The position numbers and the translations under genes are program-made. The notes beneath the pieces are model-generated. The model did no database searches. It was not told the origin of the DNA and was given only the letters and a program-made list of their open reading frames with translations. Below are positions 12,163-58,031 of a DNA stretch of 64,000 bases, one piece after another. The stretch is from Natronorubrum halophilum. GTDB taxonomy: Archaea > Halobacteriota > Halobacteria > Halobacteriales > Natrialbaceae. How positions within the stretch are numbered: the first letter of the stretch is position 1; each line of letters starts with the position of its first letter. Location: assembly GCF_003670115.1 (NCBI RefSeq), contig NZ_QQTY01000004.1, positions 558,001-622,000 on the forward strand, in the 5' to 3' direction.

Positions 12163-13764
12163 TCACTCCTCGAGGGTAACGTTGTTCTCGCCGGAGACGA
12201 GTTGCGGGTTGTACGCGACGTTCGGATGCGGCTGCATGTCGGTGACGTAGTCCTGAGTCGCGATCGTGTTGTGTTCGGAGTAGGCGGCCATAACGGGGAG
12301 TTCCTCGACGATTTCGTCGATGGCGCTGACGTAGAGTTCGCGCCGCTCGTCCTGGTCGGCCGTCTGCCGAGCCTCGGCGATGTTGTCGTGGAAATCGCCG
12401 CTCCCCTCGTAGAAGTGGCCCTGCGTGACGCCGGCGTTGTCCTCGTGAAAGAGGTTGTAGAGGTAGACGTCCGGGTCGGGCCCCCCCGTCCAGCCGAGGA
12501 TGTACATCTCGTAGTCGTCCGCGCTGCCCGAGATGTAAGTGTCCGTAAGTGTCGCGAAATCGAGGCTCTGGACCTCGGCGTCGTAGCCCAGTTCGTCCAG
12601 CCGCGAGGCGATCAGTTCGCCGAGGGCGATTCGGACGTCGTCCGGCGGGACGATGATGGTCGGATTCCAGGAGTCCGGATCGTCCAGTCCCGATTCGAGG
12701 AGCGATTCGGCCTCGTCCGGATCGTACTCCGGCGTGGCCTCCGCCCACTCGTCCGTCGGGAAATCCCAGCCGAGTTCGTCGACGATCGGCGGAACCGGCG
12801 AGTTCATCGGGGTTGCGCTGTCGCCGAGGTTCGATGAAACGAACTCGCTCATCGAGAACGAGTGCGCGATTCCCCGTCGAACCTCGGGACTGGTCGTCTC
12901 CCCCTCGTTGCAGTTGAACGCGACGTACTGGTAGGACGGACTCCTGGTGCGGTGGACCTCGATCCCCTCCTCGCCGTCGATCTGGTCCCAGTCCGCCGGC
13001 GGAACGGTCGCGATCGCGTCCGTATCGCCCGCGAGGATCTGTGAGACCCGCCCCGCGTCGTCTTCGGCCGCTTCGAACCGGATCGACTCGAGTTCCGGCT
13101 GTGGCTCACCCCAGTAGTCGTCCCAGGCCTCGAGTTCGACGTACTCGTCGGAGGTCCAGTCCTGGAAGGTGAACGGACCGGAGCCGACGGGATCCCGGTT
13201 GTAGCTCTCGCGGTCGTCGGTTCGAACCGACTGGTTGACGACGTATCCCGCCACCGTGAGCGTTTCGAACGGCCCGTAGGGATGATCGAGGTCGAACTGT
13301 ACCGTCCGTTCGTCGACGGCTTCGGTCCCGTCGACGTCGATGAAGTCGTACTCCGGACGGTTGTCGGTGTCCTCCTCGATCGGCGCGGTAAACGAGTGGA
13401 CGACGTCCTCGGCGGTGACGGGATCGCCGTTGTGAAACTCCGCGCCCTCGACGATTTCGACGATGTAGCGCTCGCCGTCGCGCTCTTCTTCGGGTTCGCC
13501 GGCGGCGATCTTCGGCTGGAGTTCGAGCTCGTAGTCGTACTCGTAGAGGCCGTCGTAAACCTGGTGGATGACCTGACTACTGTAGGCGTCGTTCGAGACG
13601 ACCGGATCGAAGTCCCCCTCCGGATTCACTTCCTGCGTGTACAGGAGGCCACCATCCCCCGGGCCGCCGTCCCCACCGATACAGCCGGCCACCATCGCTG
13701 CACTGACTGCTGCACCTGATGCGAGTACCCGCCGCCGCGTGGCGGTGAACTGATCGTGTACCAT
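12163..13764 (-). CDS. dppA: Tat-exported lipoprotein, peptide-binding protein of the dpp system (SBP family 5)
   Basis: 533 residues from MVHDQFTATRRRVLASG. The signal has R10-R12, a hydrophobic stretch and a lipobox ending in C28 (VAGCIGGDG), which fits the haloarchaeal use of Tat for lipid-anchored binding proteins. Earlier in-frame starts (to 14022) are rejected because the signal peptide must be N-terminal. Family 5 motifs: PVTAEDVVHSF, VQFDLDHPYGPF, NRDPVGSGPFTFQDW, VAFNCNEGETTSPEVRRGIAHSF. It captures peptides outside the cell and delivers them to DppBC. First gene of the operon, with a palindrome just upstream (13783-13796). Confidence 0.92.
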   Translation of the reverse strand: MVHDQFTATRRRVLASGAAVSAAMVAGCIGGDGGPGDGGLLYTQEVNPEGDFDPVVSNDAYSSQVIHQVYDGLYEYDYELELQPKIAAGEPEEERDGERYIVEIVEGAEFHNGDPVTAEDVVHSFTAPIEEDTDNRPEYDFIDVDGTEAVDERTVQFDLDHPYGPFETLTVAGYVVNQSVRTDDRESYNRDPVGSGPFTFQDWTSDEYVELEAWDDYWGEPQPELESIRFEAAEDDAGRVSQILAGDTDAIATVPPADWDQIDGEEGIEVHRTRSPSYQYVAFNCNEGETTSPEVRRGIAHSFSMSEFVSSNLGDSATPMNSPVPPIVDELGWDFPTDEWAEATPEYDPDEAESLLESGLDDPDSWNPTIIVPPDDVRIALGELIASRLDELGYDAEVQSLDFATLTDTYISGSADDYEMYILGWTGGPDPDVYLYNLFHEDNAGVTQGHFYEGSGDFHDNIAEARQTADQDERRELYVSAIDEIVEELPVMAAYSEHNTIATQDYVTDMQPHPNVAYNPQLVSGENNVTLEE

Positions 13765-13782
13765 CTTGATACCGAATGTCAC

Positions 13783-13796
13783 CCAATGAGTATTGG
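13783..13796. promoter_or_regulatory. Inverted repeat upstream of dppA, candidate operator
   Basis: CCAAT-GAGT-ATTGG: five-base arms around a four-base centre, 19 bases upstream of the dppA start. A weak TATA-like GTATTAC (minus strand, about 13803-13813) would place the transcription start within this repeat. That is where a repressor site would act. The arms are short, so chance is possible. Confidence 0.35.
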
Positions 13797-14240
13797 TAAC
13801 AGGGTAATACAGGGTTGGCAAGCGAACTTTACTGTAAACATACACGTACACACTGTTCCAGTATTGTACACGGGTGTCCATCTTATCGGACGACGCGAGT
13901 CGGTTTCTGCTCGCTTGATATCGGTCCCACCAGCGTCGGCCGCAGGACGATCCAGTCTCACGAGACCGGACCGAGCCCGCGGACCACGGACTCGAGTTCG
14001 CGAGCGGGGCTTTTCGTCCCAACCGAAACGCGTGAGACGCCGATCGAATCCCGTATCGACTGACCTACCGGTCCACCCATCGTACGGCCGTCATGCGATC
14101 AGATGCGCGGTGACTCGCAGTGGCTACTGTCGCGTGACGGTCAGCAGCGACGACCATCGGGACGTGGTTTCGGATCGAGACCGTGTCGTGACGGACTGAA
14201 TACCGATGGCATTTTTGTTCTGGTCGTACTGATACTGCGT
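13797..14240. other. Intergenic region between dppA and the PPC-domain gene
   Basis: A divergent intergenic stretch of about 440 bases with no supported gene; plus-strand frames here have poor codon bias. The stretch 13797-13865 next to dppA is AT-richer and should hold the dpp promoter. A GATACTG element near 14230 is close to the next start, but no clear TATA box precedes it. Confidence 0.5.
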
Positions 14241-14661: not shown

Positions 14662-17600
14662 ATGCGCGAGGAAGACACGCGGTACTTCGAGCGACTCGAG
14701 TCCCAGTTGGACGAGGCGTTCGACGTCGCCGAGCGCGCCAAGGAACGCGGCAGGGATCCCGAACCCGAGGTCGAGATTCCGGTCGCAAAGGACATGGCCG
14801 ACCGCGTCGAGAACATCCTCGGCATCAACGGCGTCGCCGAACGGGTTCGCGAACTCGAGGGCGAGATGTCCCGCGAGGAGGCCGCCCTCGAACTCGCGAA
14901 GGATTTCGCGGAGGGTCGCGTCGGCGACTACGAGACGAAAGCGGGCAAGATCGAAGGAGCCGTTCGCACTGCGGTCGCCTTGCTCACCGAGGGCGTCGTC
15001 GCCGCGCCGATCGAGGGGATCGACAGGGTCGAAATACTGGCGAACGACGACGGCACCGAGTTCGTCAACGTCTACTACGCCGGACCGATCCGCTCGGCCG
15101 GCGGGACGGCCCAGGCGCTGTCGGTTCTGGTAGGCGACTACACGCGCGCGCTCGTCGGGATCGAACAGTTCAACGCGCGACAGGAGGAGATCGAGCGCTA
15201 CGCCGAGGAAATCGCCCTCTACGACAAGGAGACCGGACTCCAGTACACGCCGAAAGCGAAGGAGGCCAAGTTCATCGCCAAACACCTCCCGATCATGCTC
15301 GACGGGGAGGCCACCGGCGACGAGGAGGTCTCCGGATTTCGCGACTTAGAGCGCGTCGACACCAACAGCGCCCGCGGCGGGATGTGTCTCGTTCTCGCGG
15401 AAGGGATCGCGCTCAAGGCCCCGAAGATCCAGCGCTACACCCGCAATCTCGACGAGATCGACTGGCCGTGGCTGCAGGACCTGATCGACGGTACCTACTA
15501 CGACGAAGTTGACGGGGGCAGCGACGACGAAGCCGAGTCCGACGGTGAGGGCGAAACGGACGACGCCGACGACGATGACGACGACCCCGACGACGCTGCC
15601 GAACCGGACGGCTCCAGCGGCCCGCCCCGCGTCGACACCTCACAGAAGTTCCTCCGCGATCTGATCGCCGGCCGTCCGGTCTTCTCTCATCCCTGTGCTA
15701 AGGGCGGGTTTCGACTGCGATACGGCCGCGCGCGAAATCACGGCTTCGCGACCGCCGGCGTCCACCCCGCCGCGATGCACCTGGTCGACGACTTCCTCGC
15801 GACGGGAACCCAGATCAAAACCGAACGGCCGGGGAAGGCCGCCGGCGTCGTCCCCGTCGACTCGCTCGAAGGCCCGACCGTCAAACTGGCCAACGGCGAC
15901 GTTCGGCGGATCGACGACCCCGAGGACGCCCTCGAGATCAGAAACGGCGTCGAGAAGATCCTCGATCTCGGGGAGTACCTCGTCAACTACGGCGAGTTCG
16001 TAGAGAACAACCACCCGCTTGCTCCCGCCTCCTACACCTACGAGTGGTGGATTCAGGACATCGCGGCCGCCGGGGCCGACGCGCAGGCGATCGAAGACGA
16101 CCCGCGGATCGACCAGGAGTTCCCGCCCGCGACGACGGCCCTCGAGTGGGCGTCGGAGTACGACGCCCCACTCCACCCCGAATACACCTACCTCTGGCAC
16201 GACATCTCGGTCGACGCCTTCTGCGAACTCGCCGAGGCGGTCGCCGACGGCCGGATCGAGCACGATACCGACGCCACCGGCGACGGTACCACGCTCGTCC
16301 TCGAGTACAGCGACGCCGTCCGGGAGGCCCTCGAGACCATCGTCATCGAACACCGCCAGCGTCCGGACGACGGCCGAATCGAGATCGACGACTGGCGACC
16401 GTTCGTCCGAACGACCGGCTGTACCATCCGTGAAACGGCGACCGACGGAGCCACGCTGAATCCCGACGCCCAGCAGCCGAGCATCGAACTCGAGCGCGCG
16501 TGGTCAGAAGACGACCTCTCCGAACGTGCCGAGACCTGGGGTCACGAGGAGGCCGGCGACAACGCCATCGAGACGGTCAACGAGGTGGCCCCCTTCGCGG
16601 TCCGCGAACGCGCGCCGACGCGGGTCGGTAACCGAATGGGCCGCCCGGAGAAGTCGGAGAGCCGCGACCTGAGCCCCGCCGTCCACACCCTGTTCCCGAT
16701 CGGCGAGGCCGGCGGCACGCAGCGCAACGTCGCCGACGCGGCCAAACACGCCGAAACGATGTCGGACACCCCCGGCGTCGTCGAGGTCCAGATCGGCCGT
16801 CACCGCTGTCCCGACTGCGAGACGGAGACGTTCAAGAACCGCTGTCCGGACTGTGACACCCGAACGACGCCCGACTACCGCTGTCCCGACTGCGACACCC
16901 GTATCGAACCCGACGAAGCCGGCCGCGTCGAGTGCGGTCACTGCGAACGCGAGGCCACCTGCGTCGAGAACCGCGAGGTCGACATCCACGAGGAGTACCG
17001 GGACGCGCTCGAGTCGGTCGGCGAGCGCGAGAACGCCTTCGAGATCCTGAAAGGCGTCAAGGGGCTCACCTCGACGACCAAGGTGCCAGAACCCATCGAG
17101 AAGGGCGTCCTGCGGGCCAAACACGACGTCTCAACGTTCAAAGACGGCACCGTCCGTTACGACATGACCGACCTCCCGGTCACGGCCGTCCGCGCGAGCG
17201 AGCTCGACGTCGACGTCGGCCAACTTCAGGCGCTGGGCTACGAGGAGGACATGCACGGCGAACCGCTGACTCACGAGGATCAACTCGTCGAACTCAACGT
17301 GCAGGACATCGTCCTCTCGAACGGCGCGGCCGAGCACATGCTGCAGACCGCGGACTTCATCGACGACCTGCTCGAGCAATACTACGGCCTCGAGCCGTTC
17401 TACGAGATCGAAGATCGACAGGAGTTGGTCGGCGAACTCGTCTTCGGGATGGCGCCGCACACGAGCGCGGCGACTGTCGGGAGAGTGATCGGTTTCACGA
17501 GCGCGGCGGTCGGATACGCGCATCCGTACTTTCACGCCGCCAAGAGGCGCAATTGTGACGGGGACGAAGATTGCGTGATGCTGCTAATGGACGGTCTTTT

Positions 17601-18300
17601 GAACTTTAGTACCAGTTTCTTGCCAGACCAACGGGGAGGGAAGATGGACGCCCCGCTCGTCATGTCCTCGAGAATCGATCCCTCCGAGATTGACGACGAG
17701 GCCCACAACATGGACATCGTCTCGCAGTACCCCCGCGAGTTCTACCTTGCCTCCCTCGAGCAGGCCGATCCCGAATCGGTCGAGATCCAGATCGCCGAGG
17801 AAACGCTCGGCACCGACCTCGAGTACACCGGCTTCGAGCACACTCACGACACCACCGATATCGCGATGGGGCCGGACCTTTCGGCGTACAAGACGCTCGG
17901 CTCGATGATGGACAAGATGGACGCCCAGCTCGAGCTCTCGCGGAAACTTGAGGCCGTCGACGAGACCGACGTCGCCGAGCGGGTCATCGAGTACCACTTC
18001 CTGCCGGACCTGATCGGGAACCTGCGGGCCTTCTCCCGCCAGGAAACCCGCTGTCTCGACTGCGGCGAGAAGTTCCGGCGGATGCCCCTGACCGGGGACT
18101 GTCGGGAGTGTGGCGGCCGCGTCAACCTCACCGTCCACAAGGGGTCCGTGAACAAGTACATGCAGACGGCGATTCAGGTCGCCGACGAGTACGACTGTCG
18201 AGCGTACACGAAACAGCGCTTAGAGGTCCTCGAGCGTTCCCTCGAGAGCGTCTTCGAAAACGACAAGAACAAGCAATCGGGGATCGAGGACTTCATGTGA
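14662..18300 (+). CDS. polC: DNA polymerase II (family D) large subunit DP2, catalytic
   Basis: 1212 residues, the catalytic and dimerising subunit of replicative PolD. Visible are the N-terminal DP2 domain, YYAGPIRSAGGTAQALSVLVGDY near 135-157, a haloarchaeal acidic insertion at about 281-322, zinc ribbons with repeated CPDC pairs (716-761), the catalytic-core segment with KRRNCDGDEDC around 961-972, a second Cys cluster from 1131 (CLDCGEKF...CRECGG) and a C-terminal PIP-like box (QSGIEDF) for PCNA binding. No intein is present although N964/C965 is the usual PolII intein site. Codons from about 17466 to 17640 are unlike the rest of the gene (see finding). Confidence 0.96.
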   Translation: MREEDTRYFERLESQLDEAFDVAERAKERGRDPEPEVEIPVAKDMADRVENILGINGVAERVRELEGEMSREEAALELAKDFAEGRVGDYETKAGKIEGAVRTAVALLTEGVVAAPIEGIDRVEILANDDGTEFVNVYYAGPIRSAGGTAQALSVLVGDYTRALVGIEQFNARQEEIERYAEEIALYDKETGLQYTPKAKEAKFIAKHLPIMLDGEATGDEEVSGFRDLERVDTNSARGGMCLVLAEGIALKAPKIQRYTRNLDEIDWPWLQDLIDGTYYDEVDGGSDDEAESDGEGETDDADDDDDDPDDAAEPDGSSGPPRVDTSQKFLRDLIAGRPVFSHPCAKGGFRLRYGRARNHGFATAGVHPAAMHLVDDFLATGTQIKTERPGKAAGVVPVDSLEGPTVKLANGDVRRIDDPEDALEIRNGVEKILDLGEYLVNYGEFVENNHPLAPASYTYEWWIQDIAAAGADAQAIEDDPRIDQEFPPATTALEWASEYDAPLHPEYTYLWHDISVDAFCELAEAVADGRIEHDTDATGDGTTLVLEYSDAVREALETIVIEHRQRPDDGRIEIDDWRPFVRTTGCTIRETATDGATLNPDAQQPSIELERAWSEDDLSERAETWGHEEAGDNAIETVNEVAPFAVRERAPTRVGNRMGRPEKSESRDLSPAVHTLFPIGEAGGTQRNVADAAKHAETMSDTPGVVEVQIGRHRCPDCETETFKNRCPDCDTRTTPDYRCPDCDTRIEPDEAGRVECGHCEREATCVENREVDIHEEYRDALESVGERENAFEILKGVKGLTSTTKVPEPIEKGVLRAKHDVSTFKDGTVRYDMTDLPVTAVRASELDVDVGQLQALGYEEDMHGEPLTHEDQLVELNVQDIVLSNGAAEHMLQTADFIDDLLEQYYGLEPFYEIEDRQELVGELVFGMAPHTSAATVGRVIGFTSAAVGYAHPYFHAAKRRNCDGDEDCVMLLMDGLLNFSTSFLPDQRGGKMDAPLVMSSRIDPSEIDDEAHNMDIVSQYPREFYLASLEQADPESVEIQIAEETLGTDLEYTGFEHTHDTTDIAMGPDLSAYKTLGSMMDKMDAQLELSRKLEAVDETDVAERVIEYHFLPDLIGNLRAFSRQETRCLDCGEKFRRMPLTGDCRECGGRVNLTVHKGSVNKYMQTAIQVADEYDCRAYTKQRLEVLERSLESVFENDKNKQSGIEDFM
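17466..17640 (+). other. Tract of atypical synonymous codons around the PolII intein site of polC
   Basis: Within an otherwise GC-ending gene, this tract uses AGA, AGG, AAT, TGT, GAA, GAT, CTA, GGT, CTT, TTG (twice), TTT, AGT (twice), CCA and CAA. The protein sequence stays canonical and conserved. The atypical codons are densest from 17542 to 17635 and bracket the codons for N964-C965. Codon use returns to normal at 17641. Confidence 0.8.
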
Positions 18301-55780: not shown

Positions 55781-56755
55781 TCAGAGGTCGACGCGGTCGA
55801 ACCGCCAGAGGGCGATCCCGATCGGGACGACGATCCAGAGCAGCAGGATGATGAAGGAGAACCAGTTTTGCAGGTAGAACGGAACGTCGCCCGTGAAATA
55901 AAACTCCGGATAGGAGGTTCCGAGTTCGCTTCCGCCGGTCGAACTAAGGACAGTGATCGCGTTCCCGAAGGCGTTACCCGGGTCGATCATGTCGATGAAT
56001 AGCGCCCAATCGGGAACTCGCTCCCCTGTCATCTGTTGTACGGCTCCGTCGGGTCCAGTGAATTCCCTCGTGTAGCTGACACCCTCGATGGTGCCGCGAC
56101 TGATCAAGAGCTGGAACGCGGTCTGGATCGCGTTCCAGACGATGTAGAACATGAGGAACACGCCGAACATCGCAGCCCCCGCGATGGTCGTCGATCGGGT
56201 TATCGACGAGAGCGTGACGGCGATGCTCGTATAGGCGACGCCGTAGATGATCGCCATCAGGAGCAAGCTGCCGTAGTTGACGATGTCGAACCCGCCGAGC
56301 AACACTGCAACGACGGCTGCGGCAAGCACGAACCCGACGAGTAACGAGACGGACAGGACCGCCGACCGTCCGACGAGTTTGCCGAGGAGGACGTCCTTTC
56401 GGGAGTGGGGCAGCGAGAGCAGGATCTTGATACTCCCCGTTTCGCGCTCGCCGGCGATGGCTTTCCAGCCCAGTACCAGCGCGATCAGCGGGATAACGAG
56501 CCGCGTGATCTGACTGACGAAGAGGATGAGTGCTTCCGTCGTCGCCCCCTCCGCTGCGATGTCCTCGCCGAAGTACGAGATCACTCCCGTCACGGCGACC
56601 AACAGGAGGAAGAAGAAAACGCTCAGTCCCCAGAACGTCCAGGACCGGACCGCGTCCTGGAAGTCCTTCTTCGCGATGGCGCGAACGCTCGCGAGGTTGA
56701 TCGAACTCGAGCCCGATCCCGAACTCGCCGTACCGGTGCCGGTTTCGGTGCTCAT
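55781..56755 (-). CDS. ABC-2 type transporter permease
   Basis: 324 residues. The cytoplasmic N-terminus ends RAIAKKDFQDAVRSWTFWGLSVFFFLLLV, followed by about six membrane helices; a large loop between the fifth and sixth (VSYTREFTGPDGAVQQMTGERVPDWALFIDMI) is extracytoplasmic. The end is IILLLWIVVPIGIALWRFDRVDL. NosY/ABC-2 exporters act in heme, copper or drug efflux; substrate unknown. It overlaps its ATPase stop by four bases. Confidence 0.9.
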   Translation of the reverse strand: MSTETGTGTASSGSGSSSINLASVRAIAKKDFQDAVRSWTFWGLSVFFFLLLVAVTGVISYFGEDIAAEGATTEALILFVSQITRLVIPLIALVLGWKAIAGERETGSIKILLSLPHSRKDVLLGKLVGRSAVLSVSLLVGFVLAAAVVAVLLGGFDIVNYGSLLLMAIIYGVAYTSIAVTLSSITRSTTIAGAAMFGVFLMFYIVWNAIQTAFQLLISRGTIEGVSYTREFTGPDGAVQQMTGERVPDWALFIDMIDPGNAFGNAITVLSSTGGSELGTSYPEFYFTGDVPFYLQNWFSFIILLLWIVVPIGIALWRFDRVDL

Positions 56756-57678
56756 CGCGCGTGCACCTCCGTGCCCGTGGTGTAGGACTGGAAGACGTCT
56801 TCGAGGCTCGCCTCCCGCGTCGAGAAGTCTTTGACCTCGATGCCGCGGTCCTCGAGCGCGGAGAGGACGGCGGTCTTCGAGCCGGTCACCTGCACGACGA
56901 CCGTCGGCGGGCTCTGGCTCTCGACGGCGGCGTCGCCGACGTCCGGCAGCGAGCGAATCGCCTGTAGCGTCTCGTCGTCGAATCGATCGACGGTGACGCG
57001 GAGGGTCGTTCCGCCGCCGACGGAGTCGCGAAGCCCCTCGACGGTATCGACGGCGACCATCTCGCCGTCACGAAGGATGCCGACGCGGTCACAGACCGCC
57101 TCGACTTGCTCCATGATGTGACTCGAGAAGAAGACCGTCGCGCCGCGGGCGTTCTCCTCGCGGACGATCTCTCGCATCTCGCGCGCGCCGTTGGGGTCCA
57201 GTCCCGTCGACGGCTCGTCGAGGATCAGCAAGTCGGGTTCGCCGACCAGCGCCATCGCGAGCATGAGCCGCTGGGACATCCCCTTTGAGTAGCCGCCGGC
57301 CTTTTTGTCGATGGCGTCGCGGAGGCCGACGCGCTCGAGGAGCGCCTCGGGTTCGTCGTCGGTGCCTTTCGAGTCGATCGCGAACTCGAGGTGCTGGCGC
57401 GCGGTCAGCCGATCGTAGGTTTCGACGCCTTCGGGGAGGACGCCCGTCCGGGACCGAATTTCGCGGCTGTGGTCCCGTGCGTCGAGGCCCAGCACCGTCA
57501 CCTCGCCGTTGGTCGGCCGGATGAAGTCGAGAACGACGTTGATCGTCGTCGATTTGCCGGCACCGTTCGGACCTAAAAAGCCGAATACCTCGCCCTCTTC
57601 GACCCGAAACGAGAGGTCATCGAGTGCGAGTTCCTGACCGTAGGCTTTGGTCAAGTTGTCGACTGTGATTGCTGGCAT
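56752..57678 (-). CDS. ABC transporter ATP-binding protein (CcmA/NatA type)
   Basis: 308 residues from MPAITVDNLTKAYGQELALDDLSF. Walker A GPNGAGKST, Q-loop, signature YSKGMSQRLMLAMAL, Walker B LLILDEPSTGLDP and H-loop SSHIMEQVEAVCD. The C-terminal 85 residues, after the ATPase domain, form a regulatory domain of the DrrA/NatA type ending QSYTTGTEVHAR. Upstream in-frame sequence is not used, since residues there lack acidity. Coupled by ATGA overlap to the permease. Confidence 0.92.
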   Translation of the reverse strand: MPAITVDNLTKAYGQELALDDLSFRVEEGEVFGFLGPNGAGKSTTINVVLDFIRPTNGEVTVLGLDARDHSREIRSRTGVLPEGVETYDRLTARQHLEFAIDSKGTDDEPEALLERVGLRDAIDKKAGGYSKGMSQRLMLAMALVGEPDLLILDEPSTGLDPNGAREMREIVREENARGATVFFSSHIMEQVEAVCDRVGILRDGEMVAVDTVEGLRDSVGGGTTLRVTVDRFDDETLQAIRSLPDVGDAAVESQSPPTVVVQVTGSKTAVLSALEDRGIEVKDFSTREASLEDVFQSYTTGTEVHAR

Positions 57679-57761
57679 GCCTGTGTTGACTCGGTGTTCA
57701 CCGATAAGAGTTGTCACTTCCTCGTGAAAGTATTCCAACCGAAACCGCGGAACAAACGCAC

Positions 57762-58031
57762 CTATATGGGATCGTCGGGATCGTACCGCTCGGCGGTCCG
57801 GTCGACCTCCGATGCGTAGCGCTCTCTGGTTTCCTCGTCGGTGACCGGCTCGAGTTCGGCTTCCGGAACCGCCGTCGCCGCGGTAACCGGCGAACCGGTT
57901 TGCAGCGACGTCGAGGACCGCTCTCGCTGGTGGTAGCGCGAGCCGTCGGGCGTCGCGTAGATGATCGTGACGAGATTGCGGTCGTCGAACGTTCGTTCGA
58001 CCAGCCAGCATCGGACCGTCGACTCACTCAT
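57762..58031 (-). CDS. Small haloarchaeal protein of unknown function
   Basis: 89 residues: STVRCWLVERTFDDRNLVTIIYATPDGSRYHQRERS forms a two-strand beta segment, followed by a helical, acidic tail (EETRERYASEVDRTAERYDPDDPI). It occurs upstream of transporter genes in haloarchaea. Function unknown. 83 bases upstream of the ABC ATPase on the same strand. Confidence 0.7.
   Translation of the reverse strand: MSESTVRCWLVERTFDDRNLVTIIYATPDGSRYHQRERSSTSLQTGSPVTAATAVPEAELEPVTDEETRERYASEVDRTAERYDPDDPI

Follow-up and report, generated by a model that had tools for sequence, protein, structure and literature searches.

Among the closest described systems are the mobile self-splicing introns of yeast mitochondria, where diversity climbs toward the insertion site of the endonuclease-encoding element (Repar and Warnecke 2017, PMC5378118). 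The rise is confined to elements that are mobile and comes with no relaxation of constraint on the protein, and for the SNP density the authors propose either mutagenic repair or co-conversion with sources outside the population (PMC5378118). In plant mitochondria, the group I intron of cox1 is accompanied by a foreign, mostly synonymous exon flank that can outlast putative intron loss; this co-conversion tract lies 3′ of the intron and marks its carriers (Sanchez-Puerta et al. 2011, PMC3192709). Three papers (PMC4071816, PMC10643990, PMC3024317) cover the haloarchaeal inteins of pol-IIa, pol-IIb, MCM, polB and rfc, which occur patchily at the same sites as those considered here and home actively by gene conversion, a process that requires homology in the flanks (PMC3024317). 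Whether an intein is present or absent is the usual basis for reconstructing its life cycle, and it has been held that conserved motifs give hosts scant room for immunity to homing endonucleases (PMC2814812). In the passages and literature searched, mostly outside subscription journals, we found no report of synonymous divergence or codon islands at empty archaeal intein sites.

We analyzed a 64-kb stretch of the Natronorubrum halophilum genome (G000), hereafter the window. Its polC gene (14662..18300, forward strand) is an ORF for the large subunit DP2 of DNA polymerase II (PolD), 1212 amino acids long and without an intein, with the Pfam domains PolC_DP2_N, PolC_DP2_central and PolC_DP2_cat. 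A sequence-only reading had proposed that foreign-looking synonymous codons cluster at about 17466-17640, around a vacant intein site in an otherwise uniformly GC-ending gene, as a scar of intein dynamics. The cluster itself was recovered: all of the named codons are present in frame (AGA941, AGG962, AAT964, TGT965, CTA975, CTT979, TTG980, AGT983, AGT985, TTG987, CCA988, and CAA990), within a tract of A/T-ending and rare codons that spans codons 937-993 of the catalytic domain (17470..17640, forward strand). In this tract, 19 of the 57 codons end in A or T compared to 13% in the remaining gene (binomial p = 6e-5), and 17 are rare compared to 4.5% elsewhere (p = 3e-10, with a rare set partly picked post hoc); a permutation scan for the worst 57-codon window of polC gave p = 0.02. 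The GC3 and codon-usage profile across the gene dips at the tract, as anticipated, and ranked within N. halophilum only, it comes third in strength among the 48 genes of the window. The rest of the gene was slightly overstated as uniformly GC-ending, since the N. halophilum allele has a minor private dip at residues 335-356; family-wide, however, polC has no second dip like that of the tract.

Elsewhere in the window, the ORF of an ABC-type ATPase (56755-58011, reverse strand) has a single-genome GC3 dip stronger than that of polC (0.44 over 57 codons versus 0.76), and the low GC3 of the first codons of the ORF at 12166-13881 (reverse strand) suggests that its true start codon lies downstream. 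Within polC, codons 279-321 (15496-15624) encode an acidic, Asp/Glu/Gly-rich linker that joins the N-terminal and central DP2 domains and is highly variable, close relatives included.

Two intein insertion sites, both vacant in N. halophilum, lie in or at the edge of the tract: the PolII-a site between N964 and C965 (KRRN/CDGDED; 17553..17554, forward strand) and the PolII-b site between G993 and K994 (17640..17641, forward strand), which forms the right edge. We compared polC from 121 genomes of the family, 73 of them empty, and from 60 other haloarchaea. At least 46 family members (about 40% of the family) carry an insert of 178-508 amino acids directly after N964, confirming that KRRN/CDGDED is a PolII intein site, and 11 family members have an insert after G993 as well, where the inteins are 517 residues long. 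The PolII-a intein is present in five of the ten members of the genus. Among four inteins scanned, those of 494, 508, and 517 residues contain LAGLIDADG_3 and that of 180 residues consists of the splicing domain alone. No intein remnant is left in the polC of N. halophilum. At codon 994 (17641-17643), the +1 position, PolII-b carriers encode Ser and empty alleles K, R, or Q; the intein must therefore co-convert the +1 codon to splice, which resembles the proline/serine case reported for MCM-d.

The codon dip occurs in almost every one of the 121 family alleles, occupied or empty, and in many, but not all, of the 60 polC alleles from other haloarchaeal families. Family-wide, the Kullback–Leibler (KL) score of codon usage peaks at 1.26 at codons 936-955, while no window off the tract exceeds 0.47, and the mean deviation is about -0.25 over codons 937-993, compared to -0.05 in the 15 codons upstream and +0.01 in the 17 codons downstream. 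Synonymous divergence along polC also reaches its family-wide peak in the tract. The left arm (codons 937-959; 17470..17538, forward strand) contains the family-conserved non-preferred codons ACT938, AGA941, GGT944, GGA951, CAT954, and TTT957; of 72 empty alleles, 67 keep ACT938 and 64 keep CAT954. The non-preferred codons of this arm are partly conserved in both intein states. The right arm (codons 965-993; 17554..17640, forward strand) has the top synonymous divergence and, in empty alleles, a near-uniform base composition at four-fold sites (A.26, C.23, G.29, T.22). Tract GC3 is lower in empty than in occupied alleles in 13 of the 16 genera with both states (within-genus Wilcoxon p = 0.0017), and codons 951-964 in particular are more A/T-shifted when the site is empty (p = 5.6e-5, uncorrected). 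Most intein-bearing alleles retain the dip in weaker form, indicating that acquisition alone does not produce it.

The tract also has a history separate from that of the gene. Scanning synonymous positions only, we found a significant divergent segment in 73 of 162 close polC pairs, and in 66 of these 73 it lay on the tract, with median ends at codons 939.5 and 993. For example, between an empty allele (G085) and an intein-bearing one (G074), 48% of the synonymous codons within 931-993 differ but 8% of those beyond, with identities of 0.91 and 0.92 in the flanks and 0.53 in the tract. Divergent segments were found in 42 of 73 pairs of unlike intein state and in 24 of 89 same-state pairs (Fisher p = 1e-4, the pairs being non-independent and the pairwise tests in general only partly phylogeny-corrected). 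Between the tract and the rest of polC, synonymous similarity is correlated at 0.32, compared to 0.53-0.71 when eight control windows take the place of the tract, and the standard deviation of identity among close pairs is 0.119 in the tract and 0.06-0.08 in the flanks. Eighteen tract replacements were polarised by outgroup. Tracts gained together with an intein best matched an intein-bearing allele in six of nine cases, at moderate similarities (0.64-0.78), while all nine tracts gained by empty alleles matched empty alleles.

We then considered MCM, PolB, RFC, and RNR, which were picked as known intein hosts and not by codon profile, with the best-scoring 15-31 empty alleles per gene. The windows of lowest GC3 lie close to the intein sites: at codons 947 and 979 for sites 964 and 993 in PolC, 336 and 396 for 333 and 399 in MCM, 661 and 632 for 671 and 623 in PolB, 64 for 63 in RFC, and 423 for 433 in RNR. 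A further PolB minimum, at codon 28, is probably an artefact of the upstream start of the reference ORF. In all five genes, the windows of top synonymous diversity coincide with the GC3 minima near the commonest intein sites, and rotation tests over 14 sites gave p = 0.0016 for GC3 and 0.0002 for diversity (0.016 and 0.0006 without PolC). The commoner the intein at a site, the deeper the dip (rho = -0.78, p = 0.001 over the 14 sites, with approximate prevalences counted by hand from match tables), and rarely used sites mostly show neither dip nor divergence. The tract measures 171 bp in PolC and about 60-75 bp in RFC, RNR, and MCM. In N. halophilum itself, the 31-codon window with the lowest GC3 has its midpoint exactly at the vacant site in RFC and lies five codons from the site in RNR; the PolB of this genome has no dip.

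Two of these genes contain notable blocks among empty alleles. Compared with congeneric alleles, the PolB of one genome (G033, L232) has 58-80% of synonymous positions different in segments that start at codon 628 and end at 670-694, thus running from just beyond site 623 to about site 671, and the compared alleles are all empty. In RNR, an AT-rich haplotype of rare codons (AGA, ATA, TTA) at 418-440 is common to alleles of three genera (L301, L293, L337), none of these alleles with an intein at 433; this block looks to have been imported and then passed on without the intein. Class II RNR genes of tailed haloviruses (KC292027, KC117377, KC292026, and others) align over the RNR intein-site region with only 70-79% identity and are at most possible donors of RNR tracts.

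Taken together, the codon island looks like a general footprint of repeated intein attack rather than a scar specific to N. halophilum. We think it probable that the sites of homing endonucleases undergo repeated gene conversion over short tracts and that the codon tract is the result, a reading based on the coincidence with sites in five genes, the dose-dependence on prevalence, the block replacement in close pairs, and the association with intein state; the role of cleavage and repair as its driver we infer from these patterns. Intein-encoded LAGLIDADG endonucleases would cut the region of the insertion site again and again, and the break would be repaired from other alleles. The arrival of an intein would co-convert about 20-60 codons of donor flank, whereas repair of an empty allele from another empty allele, or replacement of an occupied by an empty allele, would swap the flank without an insert. 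With strong purifying selection on the protein, only synonymous differences build up, and recurrent replacement of the flanks makes the tract turn over faster than the gene. Recurrent cutting with short-tract repair accounts for the position, the sharp edges, the block turnover, the dose-dependence, and the link to intein state. The proposal of a scar of intein dynamics is supported in its link to inteins but not as an event particular to this genome. Several observations sit less well with the homing footprint. Co-conversion among equally GC-rich hosts leaves the A/T shift unexplained, and the non-preferred codons of the left arm, conserved in both states, are not accounted for by random turnover. 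Furthermore, the N. halophilum allele has no demonstrable donor or breakpoint and its PolB no dip, significant divergent segments are few in RFC, with one of three at the site, and PolB site 671 is seldom occupied yet lies at the edge of a dip. The A/T drift of empty alleles may mean that variants which are cleaved or recombine poorly survive, that repair is mutagenic, or that selection on codons is relaxed.

The shift is best accounted for by evasion or survivorship, which however predicts narrower changes. Here, synonymous changes would stop recognition by the endonuclease, or make the flanking sequence too dissimilar for an intein-bearing allele to serve as repair donor, and escape haplotypes would be handed among empty alleles; in a GC-rich host, where a difference means a non-preferred A/T-ending codon, such escape resembles codon de-optimisation. 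The stronger A/T shift of empty alleles near the sites, the exchange of tracts among empty alleles, and the AT-rich RNR haplotype (419-440) in alleles of three genera lacking the intein at 433 are all in keeping with this, as is the drop in homing efficiency with a shorter homologous flank described for Haloferax (PMC3024317). The sequence-only reading had likewise suggested recoding that blocks the endonuclease, and the intein-state difference is compatible with it, but a tract of 57 codons (60-170 bp across genes) far exceeds the recognition site of a LAGLIDADG enzyme, many of its non-preferred codons, notably in the left arm, are common to occupied alleles, and these enzymes reportedly cope with single synonymous changes and cleave the homologous sites in related species (PMC3024317 and PMC10643990). 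As an account of the tract, evasion is a reasonable possibility that we would not call probable. More tentatively still, the empty alleles of essential haloarchaeal replication genes might form a shared, often exchanged pool of recoded flanks that resist or survive homing. If so, this would be a codon-level arms race, or passive immunity, at homing sites that spreads between genera without an insert, and genome sequence alone would reveal how intense it is. Mutagenic repair, in which cuts expose single-stranded flanks to A/T-biased mutations of which only the synonymous ones survive, would explain why divergence and A/T content are both higher near the sites and is one of the two models for the yeast gradient (PMC5378118). 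MCM shows the asymmetry that it predicts from single-strand deamination, T to the left and A to the right; in PolC, PolB, and RFC the asymmetry is faint or missing, and RNR has it the other way round. Moreover, close pairs show block replacement, not evenly faster change; we regard it as unlikely.

A constraint unrelated to homing, which would maintain slow or structured codons in catalytic motifs for the sake of folding, an RNA structure, or some other element, with inteins lying there by chance, would fit the location of intein sites within catalytic motifs (PMC2814812) and the strong conservation of some left-arm codons. Equally conserved windows off the intein sites of PolC, MCM, and PolB nevertheless have no dip, nor do the Walker A motifs of other window genes (three motifs only), so that an effect of conserved-motif or Walker A codons was rejected on these controls, and no dip is seen at rare sites that lie in conserved motifs (PolB 533, RNR 201 and 628, RFC 125). 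An overlapping RNA element was rejected, as no Rfam family matches the tract, and low synonymous diversity through purifying selection is contradicted by a tract whose diversity is the maximum of the gene, not the minimum, though some left-arm codons are conserved. Such a constraint is quite improbable. Least credible, and very improbable, is a one-time event in N. halophilum, the earlier proposal of past homing or loss with conversion from a single distant, low-GC donor. Rare codons typical of lower-GC genomes are indeed grouped at the site, and among the tracts of the class sample the nearest match is that of a different genus (G059; 90% DNA identity). With codon frequencies taken into account, however, this match contains no significant shared segment, nor do the six best-matching alleles share a significant tract segment with that of N. 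halophilum; phage records had no match to the tract and plasmid records none to the gene. Breakpoints, which had been expected near the tract ends, are not demonstrable with nearest relatives of only about 75% identity at synonymous sites. A single private scar is ruled out by the family-wide dip, which refutes such an event as a sufficient account.

Compared to the yeast case, which concerns mitochondrial introns within a species with the element in the reference (PMC5378118), the haloarchaeal footprint involves chromosomal inteins, extends across genera, was measured mainly in empty alleles, and has sharp edges and a shift to non-preferred codons. Unlike the cox1 tract, it flanks the site on both sides, is present in almost every allele, and is most pronounced where the site is empty. 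If empty sites bear a quantitative footprint, homing pressure, past and present, becomes measurable in intein-free genomes. Synonymous sites would then offer hosts room for immunity, which bears on the claim of scant room in conserved motifs (PMC2814812), and the same logic extends to resistance against engineered gene drives at conserved targets. A GC3 dip in a conserved gene, moreover, need not mean translation control or transfer of a whole gene. With regard to the MCM host, the N. halophilum genome also encodes, in addition to the chromosomal mcm, a second, divergent MCM homologue on another contig (G000:C5:89222-89863).
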